Positions 18,159 to 43,396 of a DNA stretch of 46,631 nt are shown here, one piece after another (positions within the stretch are counted from its first letter, which is position 1; the number at the start of each line of letters is the position of its first letter). The notes beneath the pieces are model-generated. The model was not told the DNA's origin. It worked only from the letters and a program-made list of their open reading frames with translations, and did not search any database. Where the stretch lies: NCBI GenBank assembly GCA_026397235.1, contig JAPLVG010000012.1:24808-71438 (forward strand), read 5' to 3'. Both the position numbers and the translations under genes were made by a program. The DNA comes from Candidatus Berkelbacteria bacterium (GTDB taxonomy: Bacteria > Patescibacteriota > UBA1384 > XYA2-FULL-43-10 > CAINNR01).

Positions 18159-18677
18159 GAGGTAAGCCCACTGATCTTTACACAGATGGGACACGGATGA
18201 AATCCAAGAAAATTAAATTTGGGTAAGTCCACTGATCTTTTACACCGATAAAACACAGATCAGTTGACCAACCGCTTTATTAAAACTTTGTGCTTAGAAA
18301 AAACTAGCAGAAGTCCAACTTTTAATTTTTCCGCTTTAAGATAATTCAAAAGCTGTGTCCAATCGCTAGGAAAGATTTCTCGACGTACCTTCAGCTCAAT
18401 AGCCAATTTGTTTTCAACTAGGAAATCTAAATAAAACTTTCCAATTACTTCTCCATCGTACAATATTTTTGCATATTTTTCACGCTTGAAATTTATCCTA
18501 GAAGCTTCCAGTTCTTTGGAGAGTGCCTGTTGATAAATTTTTTCTTGGTACCCATATCCCAAGTTATTGTAGACTTTGAAAGCTAGACCAATAACTTTCT
18601 CGGTTAGGTCGTTAAAATTATTTTCAGTTGGATTTATCAGTGTTTCCATCTGTGTCAATTATCTGTGGGCTTACCTC
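18159..18677. mobile_element. 519-bp element with perfect 13-bp terminal inverted repeats (gaggtaagcccac/gtgggcttacctc) carrying a GxxExxY ORF
   Basis: TIRs at 18159-18171 and 18665-18677; internal acacagat/atctgtgt palindromes. Confidence 0.75.
18260..18658 (-). CDS. GxxExxY (PDDEXK_3-like) protein
   Basis: VIGLAFKVYNNLGYGYQEKIYQQALSKEL...FYLDFLVENKLAIELKVRREIFPSDWTQLLNYLKAEKLKVGLLLVF. Confidence 0.92.
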   Translation of the reverse strand: MTQMETLINPTENNFNDLTEKVIGLAFKVYNNLGYGYQEKIYQQALSKELEASRINFKREKYAKILYDGEVIGKFYLDFLVENKLAIELKVRREIFPSDWTQLLNYLKAEKLKVGLLLVFSKHKVLIKRLVN

Positions 18678-19661
18678 GATATTATCTTCAGTTCGTTTTC
18701 CATGAAATGCACGATGGATGTCGCGCAGGTGTTGATCCGTGACATGGGTGTAAATTTGAGTAGTTGAAACATTGGCATGACCCAAGAGTGATTGGACTGA
18801 ACGAAGATCTGCCCCATTAATCAGTAAATCAGTGGCGAAAGTGTGACGTAATGTGTGAGGAGAAACATGCTTAGTAATACCGGCAGCCTTGGCGTATTTA
18901 GCAACGATTCGTTCAATTGAACGTACCGTCAATCGATCGCCACCCAGTTTGTTAAGTATTAATTCCTCCGAATCACCAATCAATTTGATATAGCCGGCTA
19001 GTACTTCATGGGCCGAATCGGAAAGAAAGACTACTCGGACTTTGCCGCCCTTGCCACGAACGGGAATTTCGTCGCGCTCCAAATTAATATCGCCAACATT
19101 TAAATTGGCCAACTCCGAAACTCGGAGGCCAGTGGAAAATAAAAGTTCCAGTATCAGCCGATCACGCAAGCCCTTGAAACTGGAAATATTCGGCATTTTT
19201 ATTAATTCGATGATGTCATTGGCTTCAAGAAATTCAACTTTGCGTTCTTCGCTTTTAGCCAGAACGACTTTTTGCGGTGCTAGTGATGTAACTCCCTTGG
19301 TTGCCAAAAATCCTAGGAAAGCCCTAAGAGTGATGATGGAATAATTTTGTGTTGAGCGTTTCAATGGGCGACCCGATTTATCAGACAGGCGGTTTAGATA
19401 GAGGCGGTACTCCTTGACTGAGTCTTCAGTGATCAGGTCTGGTGTCATTGCGAGGTCGCTATCGGCGACCGCGGCAATCTCGTTTTTAGGATTGTCCACA
19501 GGGTCACCTTCGGAAGACTCCGCTTCGCTCGCAATGACGAGCGAAAACCAAGTTAAAAATTTTGTCAAATATCTATCATAATTCGCCACAGTTAAAAGAG
19601 ATTGGCCCTTTTCCAATTCGGTGTATTCCAAAAAATCACGTTTTAATTGCCATAAATCCAT
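18624..19661 (-). CDS. Tyrosine recombinase (XerC/XerD-like) with repeat-derived internal segment and C-terminal tail
   Basis: LRDRLILELLFSTGLRVSELANL, HTLRHTFATDLLINGADLRSVQSLLGHANVSTTQIYTHV; start at MDLWQLKRDF because longer N-terminus is encoded by repeat 19668-19753. Confidence 0.93.
   Translation of the reverse strand: MDLWQLKRDFLEYTELEKGQSLLTVANYDRYLTKFLTWFSLVIASEAESSEGDPVDNPKNEIAAVADSDLAMTPDLITEDSVKEYRLYLNRLSDKSGRPLKRSTQNYSIITLRAFLGFLATKGVTSLAPQKVVLAKSEERKVEFLEANDIIELIKMPNISSFKGLRDRLILELLFSTGLRVSELANLNVGDINLERDEIPVRGKGGKVRVVFLSDSAHEVLAGYIKLIGDSEELILNKLGGDRLTVRSIERIVAKYAKAAGITKHVSPHTLRHTFATDLLINGADLRSVQSLLGHANVSTTQIYTHVTDQHLRDIHRAFHGKRTEDNIEVSPQIIDTDGNTDKSN
19443..19539. repeat. tgtcattgcgagg...ctcgcaatgac palindromic repeat in frame inside recombinase CDS
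   Basis: Inverted ends gtcattgcgag/ctcgcaatgac; translates as VIASEAESSEGDPVDNPKNEIAAVADSDLAMT. Confidence 0.88.
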
Positions 19662-19667
19662 AATATT

Positions 19668-19753
19668 GAGGTAAGTCCACTGATCTTTGCACAGATTAGA
19701 CACAGATTTTCTTATCTGTGATTTATCAGTGTCGTTATCTGTGGGCTTACATC
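19668..19753. repeat. ORF-less 86-bp MITE-like copy of the 18159-18677 element
   Basis: Ends gaggtaagtccac / gtgggcttacatc, nearly identical to the GxxExxY element TIRs; internal atctgtg/cacagat. Confidence 0.8.
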
Positions 19754-21096: not shown

Positions 21097-21186
21097 TGTG
21101 GAAACCACACAGACATCAACACTGAAATAGCACAGAAAACCGAATTCTGTGTCAAATCTGCGTAACTATCTGTGTTGTTTCTTCCA
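21097..21186. repeat. acacagat-family palindromic repeat (ggaaaccacacaga...tctgtgttgtttcttcc)
   Basis: Fills the FemAB-murE intergenic gap; ends inverted. Confidence 0.8.
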
Positions 21187-21187
21187 T

Positions 21188-22093
21188 TTAATGCCTTCTA
21201 ATTAATTCCGCTATTTTAAATATTTGGTATTTGACAGGCGAGAATATCATATCCCAACTTCCAAGCGCAGTGAATTCATTGCCACCGAACTGTTTTTTGA
21301 ATCTGGTGACGCCAGCCCACGGATGCTTTTCATCATCATTTGGTGCGATTCCGAACATATCGTAGTATTTACATCCACGCTTTTTGGCTTCCTTCATAAT
21401 CTCCCAATGAAGTTTGTATGGCCCCATTTTCTCCCGCTGTTCATCACTGGATCCGCCAAACAAATAGGTGCAAATATCTTTGTAAAATACTATGATCGCC
21501 GAGGCGAGCACGGCGCCGTCAGCTGCTTTTGCGCTGAACACTTGAACATATTCTTTTGGCGAACCGATGTCAAGAAGAGTTTGGAAATAGGCGATATTGC
21601 GGTAGGTAATTTTTTGCCGTTTGGCCATGGTTTCATATAGTTTGAAAAAGTTCTCAACGCTACCTTTTTCTATTTTTACCTCATTTTTTTCAGCAACTTT
21701 AATGTTATAACGGCCCTTTTGTTTCATTTCTAGCAATATGTCTTCTTCTGATTTTGTTAGATAGATTAGCAAAGTGTGCTCAGGTTGCATCTCTTCAAAG
21801 GCCTTTTCGTAGCCGGATTTAGCCGGGTCGATGTCACCGTCGGCTTCCTCTACGGACTCCATTCGATAAAACAGAGCTTTTTCGTCTGCGGCAATTTTTT
21901 TGATTTGATCAAGGAAAATTTTCTGCATTGCCAACTTTGTCTGGTCGCGACTCATCATTGGCGAGTAAAGCATCGACCCAAGTAGTGGAATTTTCTTCTC
22001 CAGAACTAGGATATCAAAAACCCGCCAGTTCTTAGAGTAACCAGTAGCCAGTTTAAAGTTTTCCCACTCTTTGGTTTGAAAAATCGTTGCCAT
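21188..22093 (-). CDS. FemAB/FemX-family peptidoglycan interpeptide bridge protein
   Basis: MATIFQTKEWENFKLATGYSKNWRVFDILVLEKKI...KGRYNIKVAEKNEVKIEKG...GPYKLHWEIMKEAKKRGCKYYDMFGIAP; start below terminator at 22125-22152. Confidence 0.85.
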   Translation of the reverse strand: MATIFQTKEWENFKLATGYSKNWRVFDILVLEKKIPLLGSMLYSPMMSRDQTKLAMQKIFLDQIKKIAADEKALFYRMESVEEADGDIDPAKSGYEKAFEEMQPEHTLLIYLTKSEEDILLEMKQKGRYNIKVAEKNEVKIEKGSVENFFKLYETMAKRQKITYRNIAYFQTLLDIGSPKEYVQVFSAKAADGAVLASAIIVFYKDICTYLFGGSSDEQREKMGPYKLHWEIMKEAKKRGCKYYDMFGIAPNDDEKHPWAGVTRFKKQFGGNEFTALGSWDMIFSPVKYQIFKIAELIRRH

Positions 22094-22713: not shown

Positions 22714-23937
22714 ATGAGAAATAAAGAAATTAGAATCCTTGCCATTGAAACTAGTTGTGATGAAACTGCGGCGGCAGTCATTTCTAATTGTCATTCTGAA
22801 CTTGTTTCAGAATCCAGATCCCGAAATAAATTCGGGATGACAGTTCCGGTGGTTTTGTCGAATGTTATTAGTTCGTCGGCTGATTTACACGCCAAAACTG
22901 GCGGCATCGTCCCCGAAGTTGCCAGCCGGGCGCAAATGGAGGCAATGGTTCCGGTTGTCGACGAAGCACTGGAAAAATCTAATTGCAAAATCGACGACAT
23001 CACGCATGTCGCTGTGACAAATGGCCCGGGCTTGATCGGTTCACTTTTGGTTGGTTTTAACGCCGCCAAAACCATCGCTTATGCCAAAAAATTACCATTT
23101 ATTCCAATAAATCACATCGAAGGACATATTTACTCGGCTTTCAGCAGAGAAAACAGAATCATGAATCATGAATTAAGAATTATGAATGAAACCCATAATT
23201 CAGCATTCAGTGTTCATAATTCATTTGAGTTTCCGATCCTGGCTCTTACCGTATCCGGTGGCCACACATCGCTGACCGTCATGCGCGACCATGGAGTATA
23301 TGAAACTATTGGGGAAACTATAGACGATGCTGCTGGCGAGGCTTTTGATAAAGTGGCAAAGCTTTTGGATCTCGGCTATCCTGGAGGACCGATAGTCTCA
23401 GAATTTGCCAGCAAATTCAGAGACAGAATTAAGAATAATGAATTAGGGATTATGAATGGAAACCATAATTCAGAATTCAGAACTCATAATTCAATCCGAT
23501 TCCCTCGTCCGCTAATGGATAAGCCAAATTTCAATTTCTCATTTTCTGGTCTGAAAACTGCAGTTCTAACCGAAGTGATGAAAAATGGCGCTGATAGTGA
23601 ACAGCGCAAGCAGGAGATTTGTTTTGCTTTCGAGGAAGCAGCAGTCGAGGTTCTTTGCGCCAAGGCAGTTAAAGCCGCCCGACAGTATCGCCCCAAGGGA
23701 ATCATCCTAGCAGGTGGCGTGGCGGCTAATCGCAGACTGCAAGAGGAACTAAAAAACCGCATTGACAAATATAACGACGAAGTTGAAGAGAAGTATAAAT
23801 TAGATTTTTATATGCCGGGCCCAGGCATGGCTGGTGATAATGCAGTCATGATTGGCTTGGCGGCGTACTATCACATCATCAAAGACGAAAAGTTTGAGCT
23901 ATTTGGCACCACGGTTGATTCGAATTTAGCTCTTTGA
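22714..23937 (+). CDS. tsaD: tRNA N6-adenosine threonylcarbamoyltransferase with three in-frame repeat insertions
   Basis: ILAIETSCDETAAAV, GGIVPEVASRAQMEAM, NHIEGHIYSAF, LALTVSGGHTSL, FSFSGLKTAVL, AGGVAANRRLQEEL. Confidence 0.96.
   Translation: MRNKEIRILAIETSCDETAAAVISNCHSELVSESRSRNKFGMTVPVVLSNVISSSADLHAKTGGIVPEVASRAQMEAMVPVVDEALEKSNCKIDDITHVAVTNGPGLIGSLLVGFNAAKTIAYAKKLPFIPINHIEGHIYSAFSRENRIMNHELRIMNETHNSAFSVHNSFEFPILALTVSGGHTSLTVMRDHGVYETIGETIDDAAGEAFDKVAKLLDLGYPGGPIVSEFASKFRDRIKNNELGIMNGNHNSEFRTHNSIRFPRPLMDKPNFNFSFSGLKTAVLTEVMKNGADSEQRKQEICFAFEEAAVEVLCAKAVKAARQYRPKGIILAGGVAANRRLQEELKNRIDKYNDEVEEKYKLDFYMPGPGMAGDNAVMIGLAAYYHIIKDEKFELFGTTVDSNLAL
22789..22842. repeat. tgtcattctgaacttgtttcagaatcc...cccgaaataaattcgggatgaca palindromic repeat inside tsaD (54 bp, 18 codons)
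   Basis: Inverted tgtcat/atgaca ends plus two internal hairpins; encodes CHSELVSESRSRNKFGMT. Confidence 0.9.
23150..23226. repeat. aattatgaat/attcataatt palindromic repeat inside tsaD
   Basis: Encodes ENRIMNHELRIMNETHNSAFSVHNS; related to 23427-23493. Confidence 0.85.
23427..23493. repeat. Second aattatgaat/attcataatt palindromic repeat inside tsaD
   Basis: Encodes RIKNNELGIMNGNHNSEFRTHNSI; homologous to 23150-23226. Confidence 0.85.
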
Positions 23938-42958: not shown

Positions 42959-43396
42959 ACGCAGACGCAAAAGTAAGGAAAATTATGCCGGAGAAATTAC
43001 TCTACGAAGGATTAACCGATAAAATAATTGCAACATGTTTTAAGGTTTACAATCAATTTGGATATGGTTATCCGGAAAAAATATACCAAAAAGCGATTGA
43101 GTTAGAATTCCAAGATTTAAAAATCCCCTACAAAAGATAGCAATATTCAAAAATATTTTACGGTGGAAAAATTGCCGGTCGATTCTTTCTGGATTTTCTT
43201 CTTGATGATAAAGTGGCCTTGGAAGTAAAAGTTCGTAGAAATATCTATGAAAGCGACTGGATACAACTGTTGAATTATTTAAAATCAAAAGATTTGAGAG
43301 TGGGAATTTTGGCCGTATTTACCAGAAACAAAGTTGAGATTAAGAGAGTTATTAATCAGATCCGCGTTTAATCTGCGTGGATATCGGTGTTGTTAC
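42930..43396. mobile_element. 467-bp element with imperfect ~37-bp inverted repeats carrying a nonsense-disrupted GxxExxY ORF
   Basis: gtaaccacgctgataaacacgcggattgaacgcagac vs inverted gtaacaacaccgatatccacgcagattaaacgcggat. Confidence 0.72.
42985..43371 (+). pseudogene. GxxExxY (PDDEXK_3-like) gene with internal amber stop
   Basis: MPEKLLYEGLTDKIIATCFKVYNQFGYGYPEKIYQKAIELEFQDLKIPYKR*QYSKIFYGGKIAGRFFLDFLLDDKVALEVKVRRNIYESDWIQLLNYLKSKDLRVGILAVFTRNKVEIKRVINQIRV; TAG at 43138-43140. Confidence 0.88.

Follow-up and report, generated by a model that had tools for sequence, protein, structure and literature searches.

The window, that is, the whole 46,631-nucleotide stretch of DNA analysed here, belongs to a 99.7% complete draft genome (G000) of 925,359 bases in 28 contigs. 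An 86-bp repeat without ORF and a longer element with a single ORF lie on either side of a recombinase gene, and a second copy of that ORF is found further along. The features are the following.

18159..18677, minus strand: gene-bearing (putatively autonomous) element, with ends of the same type as the 86-bp repeat; inverted-repeat score 57 against a 99% null of 33
18159..18199, plus strand: outer left end of the gene-bearing element, 89% over 44 nt to the 86-bp repeat
18221..18262, plus strand: second, internal left-end copy (GGGTAAGTCCACTGATC..ACACAGATCA), 87% over 38 nt to the 86-bp repeat
18260..18658, minus strand: GxxExxY protein of predicted PD-(D/E)XK nuclease fold, sole ORF of the element (PF13366, E=6e-33; TIGR04256, E=6.6e-34)
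18638..18677, minus strand: right end of the gene-bearing element, from which the last codons and the new stop of the recombinase ORF come
18624..19661, minus strand: Xer-type tyrosine recombinase, neighbouring host gene (PF00589, E=4e-44)
19668..19753, no strand assigned: ORF-less (MITE/REPIN-like) copy, GAGGTAAGTCCAC...GTGGGCTTACATC, with CACNGAT words, three per arm
42985..43356, plus strand: second GxxExxY copy (C10:67792-68163), with one internal TAG and its own GCGGAT/GCTGAT-type ends

The 86-bp repeat starts with GAGGTAAGTCCAC at 19668 and finishes with GTGGGCTTACATC at 19753; the gene-bearing element runs from GAGGTAAGCCCAC at 18159 to GTGGGCTTACCTC at 18677. An earlier note on this DNA had counted one mismatch per end between the two, which direct reading of both sequences found to be exact, and had seen no ORF in the repeat; indeed, there is none within the 86 bp. 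Its description of repeated acacagat palindromes has to be amended: the exact ACACAGAT occurs only once, and the true unit is the word CACNGAT, which recurs at a spacing of about one helical turn and in opposite orientation between the two arms. The repeat is lodged 3 nt from the stop codon of a murE-like gene and 6 nt from the ATG of the recombinase gene. The gene-bearing element, which has two end arrays on its left side (18159-18199 and 18221-18262), replaced the stop codon of the recombinase gene and is missing from the orthologous junction in G001, a genome of the same genus. The recombinase does sit between the full and the deleted form, as the note had it, but as an Xer-type host gene outside the element. 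Its orthologs in G001, G003 and G002 are 84%, 73% and 75% identical, and the one in G001 has neither element nearby; orthologs without the elements led us to reject the recombinase as an element component, and it is a bystander host gene. The second GxxExxY copy (42985-43356) is probably a decaying element.

Other palindromes are present in the window. The tsaD-like ORF 22714-23937 contains at 23156-23222 a word-type palindrome (GAATCATGAATCA...; peptide RIMNHELRIMNETHNSAFSVHNS) inserted in frame, and a second similar stretch (RIKNNELGIMNGNHNS) further along. Inside the recombinase ORF, positions 19445-19545 form a palindromic repeat (TCATTGCGAG...CGCAATGACGA) reminiscent of Rickettsia-type palindromic elements, and a related repeat (TCATTCTGAAC...GGGATGACA) is found in tsaD near 22785-22850. 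A further inverted repeat without ORF, imperfect and containing CACAGA/TCTGTG words (GTGGAAACCACACAGAC...TCTGTGTTGTTTCTTCCA), occupies 21098-21190 in the spacer that separates the murE-like gene from the following one.

The 86-bp repeat, whose arms are imperfect, escaped a simple search of the window for inverted repeats; the case for its reality rests on copy number. A search of G000 returned ten further full-length ORF-less copies, matched over nearly their whole length (E = 9e-27 to 2.5e-11), and both ends of the element at 18159-18677. Of the window type, G000 thus has 11 ORF-less copies of full length, a single copy with the gene and about 4 solo ends. This is the genome-wide terminus count proposed in the note (ORF-less to ORF-bearing, 11 to 1), and the outcome that would have refuted its idea, termini that are mere low-complexity words, is not met: the copies are dispersed in G000. 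In the alignment of the 11 copies the outer GAGGTAAG and the CACNGAT words are conserved, while the letters between the words drift and the spacers vary. Such copies are far beyond chance expectation and, together with the conserved ends and words, show the repeat to be genuine and dispersed.

Of the nine GxxExxY genes in G000, eight have their own inverted word arrays and one, C20:65443, is a fragment with no visible repeat. When 20 ORF-less repeats were assigned to their best-matching gene-bearing element, 15 went to the window type, 3 to the C20/C7 type and 2 to the C27 type. One of the C20/C7-type repeats was a tie: it is a hybrid (L015, at C1:33652) of a window-type end (GACGTAAGCCCAC) and a C20-type end (GTGGCAGGACACTAC). 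The gene-bearing copies at C20:38464 and C7:33415 share 79% identity over 443 bp while their surroundings are unrelated, which indicates that a complete element moved or was copied too. The genome search found no other gene, and no transposase, between such ends in G000.

The ORF-less copies are located between co-directional genes, according to a simple ORF scan, in most cases 0-12 nt after the preceding stop codon and 3-24 nt before the following start codon; the copy at L006 supplies the stop codon itself, hence the larger gap reported by the scan there. Most copies are in spacers syntenic with G001 (~937 kb compared, ~75% DNA identity to G000), where no GxxExxY gene and no match to the 86-bp repeat was found. 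Wherever both flanks align, the element is missing from the G001 junction, which answers favourably the note's call for empty sites in relatives. Three sites (L023, L034 and L035; two gene-bearing, one ORF-less) were not anchored on both sides, and exact insertion junctions cannot be read since the sister genome is only ~75% identical in DNA. At the sites of L009, L010 and L011, the G001 spacers hold other palindromes instead. Similarly, in G008 and G009 (81% identity), one spacer (L283, G008 C9:4785; L301) holds unrelated palindromic repeats between highly conserved genes, which we take from the flanking peptides to be tuf and rpsJ. With a different palindrome in the corresponding spacer and no clean junction, that pair was rejected as an exact empty site. 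The differing palindromes in equivalent spacers point to these spacers being hot spots with turnover.

An ordinary MITE of some undetected DDE insertion sequence, resembling the GxxExxY ends by chance, would match the observed size, inverted ends and copy number as well as the absence from the sister-species sites. Prokaryotic IS-derived MITEs are likewise short, AT-rich, multi-copy and devoid of ORF, with inverted ends as in the gene-bearing copy (PMC10969869); the GxxExxY elements differ from them in having no known transposase or target-site duplication, and ends made of iterated words. Our repeats qualify as MITEs by the TIRs they have in common with a gene-bearing element and by dispersed copies that are absent at alignable orthologous sites; what they lack is the target-site duplication and a partner encoding a recognised transposase. 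The search for a duplication, which was limited to the 11 copies, gave a mean direct repeat of 2.91 nt versus 2.95 nt for mismatched flank pairs. This absence argues against a DDE enzyme and a classical DDE MITE. That a genome 99.7% complete has no transposase between such ends, and that the gene-to-end link recurs in many phyla with different words, also counts against such an origin, which we regard as very improbable.

The GxxExxY protein scored 116.8 bits against a curated cut-off of 35 for its family (GxxExxY, TIGR04256; PDDEXK_3, PF13366). Six residues (E39, D78, E88, K90, Q102 and Y106) never vary among 52 homologs; D78, E88 and K90 make up the catalytic D-ExK, which is thus present. 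The AlphaFold2 model (pLDDT 89) has as best PDB match SSO0001 (E=2.8e-5, TM 0.60), which we take to be a Cas4 nuclease, and MGME1 and lambda-type exonucleases are the other close structures. By sequence, the only solved relative was Endonuclease I (E=0.93). Profile and structure comparison found no DDE, HUH, Y or S recombinase domain. On the strength of the model we are confident of the PD-(D/E)XK nuclease fold; nuclease activity itself is inferred. The protein resembles the Cas4/RecB type in its best solved-structure match but stands alone, is ~120-130 aa long with ~20% identity and is encoded within a repeat-bounded element. PADLOC matches were all weak (at best E=0.009, between a single homolog and Cas4b) and membership of a defence system was rejected; a PHROGs search gave a weak match to a family of unknown function. 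GxxExxY proteins are annotated without function in thousands of genomes. In the open-access literature searched, the name is mentioned in two papers, neither of which deals with repeats; subscription literature was outside the search.

By analogy, the nearest functional precedent is the Rpn group (YhgA-like, transposase_31), multi-copy PD-(D/E)XK nucleases tied to RecA-independent recombination (PMC5350276), although RpnA shows little sequence specificity and the Pfam family is not that of GxxExxY. Rpn relatives have been described as non-specific endonucleases (PMC5350276) and, in a preprint, as anti-phage toxins (PMC10327210).

In layout the elements are closest to REPIN/RAYT systems, whose enzyme differs in fold from the nuclease here. 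Both have a single gene between inverted repeats, ORF-less extragenic doublets with some singlets, and a repeat class matched to, and co-evolving with, the enzyme (PMC3116915, PMC8266576). The REPIN definition is satisfied as regards extragenic inverted doublets cognate to one repeat-flanked enzyme gene and not as regards the HUH Y1 transposase, which profile and structure comparison did not find in GxxExxY; its ends, moreover, are tandem word arrays rather than bulged or perfect hairpins. REPINs also have a conserved hairpin that is recognised as a single strand. The 86-bp repeat does fold in silico (0 of 200 shuffles fold equally well; hairpin z = -5.1). Over 29 pairs in the 11 copies, the only ones available, there were 0 compensatory changes and the covariation score was that of shuffles; selection on a hairpin or RNA found no support in them. 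Could the repeats nonetheless be REP/REPIN-like sequences that an HUH (Y1) transposase has spread and that are retained as mRNA hairpins or operon spacers, their link with GxxExxY being secondary? Extragenic inverted doublets and singlets, an in silico hairpin and spacers of co-directional genes are REPIN architecture (PMC3116915). We nevertheless think this improbable: the missing covariation argues against a RAYT-type single-strand route and an HUH REPIN, direct word repeats within an arm are unnecessary for a hairpin, and the gene between the repeats encodes a predicted PD-(D/E)XK nuclease without HUH domain.

The ends of GxxExxY elements are arrays in which a short word of generic form ACNNAW is repeated, with a spacing of 7-11 bp (mostly 7-8 or 10-11) and a marked bias in orientation (652 forward versus 75 reverse). 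The word is common to both ends of an element and different between paralogs. Word similarity (cosine) climbs with protein identity, from 0.11 at 20-30% to 0.52 at 60-70%. With near-duplicates (4 of the 102 loci) taken out, which left the result unchanged, the Mantel r was 0.34 over all pairs and 0.19 among those with less than 45% identity (p ~0.0002 by permutation). At equal protein identity, same-genome and different-genome pairs had about the same word similarity (0.17 versus 0.16; 0.25 versus 0.27). Host composition was rejected as the source of the pattern, since the partial r controlling for GC was 0.31 and same-genome pairs were no more alike. The end word thus tracks protein identity rather than the host. 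The simplest inference, with no binding data behind it, is that the GxxExxY protein reads the words; shared descent is not excluded, and part of the correlation could come from gene and ends having been inherited together. Column-word mutual information named candidate residues, but these are confounded by phylogeny and no conclusion was drawn from them.

Inverted repeats close to GxxExxY ORFs extend to 33 loci of relatives and 80 loci of public genomes (CPR, Bacteroidota, Zixibacteria, Planctomycetota, an archaeon and others). For these 80 loci the median inverted-repeat score was 42, against 18-19 when control ORFs from those loci were scored (p = 9e-31, Mann-Whitney). With a strict cut, 29 of the 80 were above the 99% cross-locus null, a threshold inflated by the words that loci have in common; 13 of 78 were above the 99% control value. 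ORF-less copies of the local type gave 34 matches in G007, 12 in G008 and 20 in G061 (Uhrbacteria), both arms counted; comparison genomes gave none or merely marginal ones. This suggests that the design of the GxxExxY ends marks an overlooked kind of mobile DNA, present in many phyla. Solo ends are common. A few oddities were also seen. Four G007 copies (L268, L269, L271 and L276) are chimeras with outer CACGGA/CACAGA arms around an ACTAAT-type array, that is, they join end arrays that belong to two different GxxExxY elements of G007. On contig C4 of G061 (86750-87781; L297, L298), three Uhrbacteria-type palindromes recur every 467 bp together with shared flanking DNA: this is a tandem array containing the element.

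Genes for S23/four-helix-bundle proteins (TIGR02436), carried by 26 of 31 relatives, are bounded by inverted word arrays too (L092-L121). Their end words are of the AG[AT][AT] type, with periods of 7-8 and 14-15 bp. The two families differ in words and rhythm: ACNNAW occurs 5.4 times per 100 bp in GxxExxY ends versus 0.95 in S23 ends, AG[AT][AT] 1.5 versus 5.7, and the word period is 8/10-11 versus 7/14. The 23S rRNA IVS (S23p) also has a small ORF between terminal inverted repeats and is considered selfish (PMC4990558). The window's elements differ from it in protein, word class and period, and do not fit its definition, namely an S23p ORF and a location in 23S rRNA: they have another ORF and lie in mRNA operon spacers between protein genes.

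As S23 genes do not encode nucleases and have comparably built ends, shared host machinery could move both. GxxExxY and S23 genes would then be cargo of a common host or IS-encoded enzyme acting on the ends, and the nuclease would serve regulation, defence or immunity to excision. An IS could be hidden in the 28-contig draft, and the G007 chimeras, with an ACTAAT array inside CACGGA ends, can be read in the same way. Yet the words are specific to the protein family and, within the GxxExxY family, covary with the protein, and no other gene in G000 has these ends; we consider the cargo scenario unlikely without being able to dismiss it.

We favour, with a probability of roughly 0.6, a MITE/REPIN-like element family mobilised in trans by a Cas4/RecB-fold GxxExxY nuclease that recognises the end words. 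Shared ends, copy number, absence from the sister genome, word specificity by protein and intact nuclease residues are observed; word binding by GxxExxY, catalysis of movement and the insertion route are inferred. The relationship of autonomous element to MITE proposed in the earlier note is supported in the same terms by ends, copies and sister absence, with the autonomous role of the GxxExxY gene remaining an inference. The complete form would consist of two inverted word arrays around one GxxExxY gene, and the 86-bp repeat would be a non-autonomous member. The nuclease would recognise the arrays at both ends and nick or cut there, processing gene-less copies in trans. New copies would enter short spacers of co-directional genes, past the stop codon and ahead of the ribosome-binding site that follows; the probable route, inferred from the lack of a target-site duplication, is one linked to repair or replication. 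Solo ends and chimeric copies may fit such copying better than cut-and-paste, which remains speculation. Against a nuclease acting in this way stand the missing target-site duplication, the frequency of solo ends, the comparably built S23 ends and the activities described for the Rpn relatives, and we know of no PD-(D/E)XK enzyme that transposes alone. As a further difference from GxxExxY, Rpn genes are not known to be flanked by cognate repeats.

A broader claim can be put forward only tentatively, as we give it less than an even chance: that these elements form a separate and very widespread mobile class, in which one small Cas4-like nuclease, with no transposase, moves its gene and gene-less derivatives via element-specific end words, the co-evolution of protein and word being a nuclease/target code and the S23 elements a parallel class. 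If the ends serve as recognition sites, genomes already spell out hundreds of natural pairs of nuclease and target word. A DNA-recognition code and transposition without transposase would then become directly testable, and a large part of the short palindromes in the spacers of the tiny CPR genomes would be accounted for.
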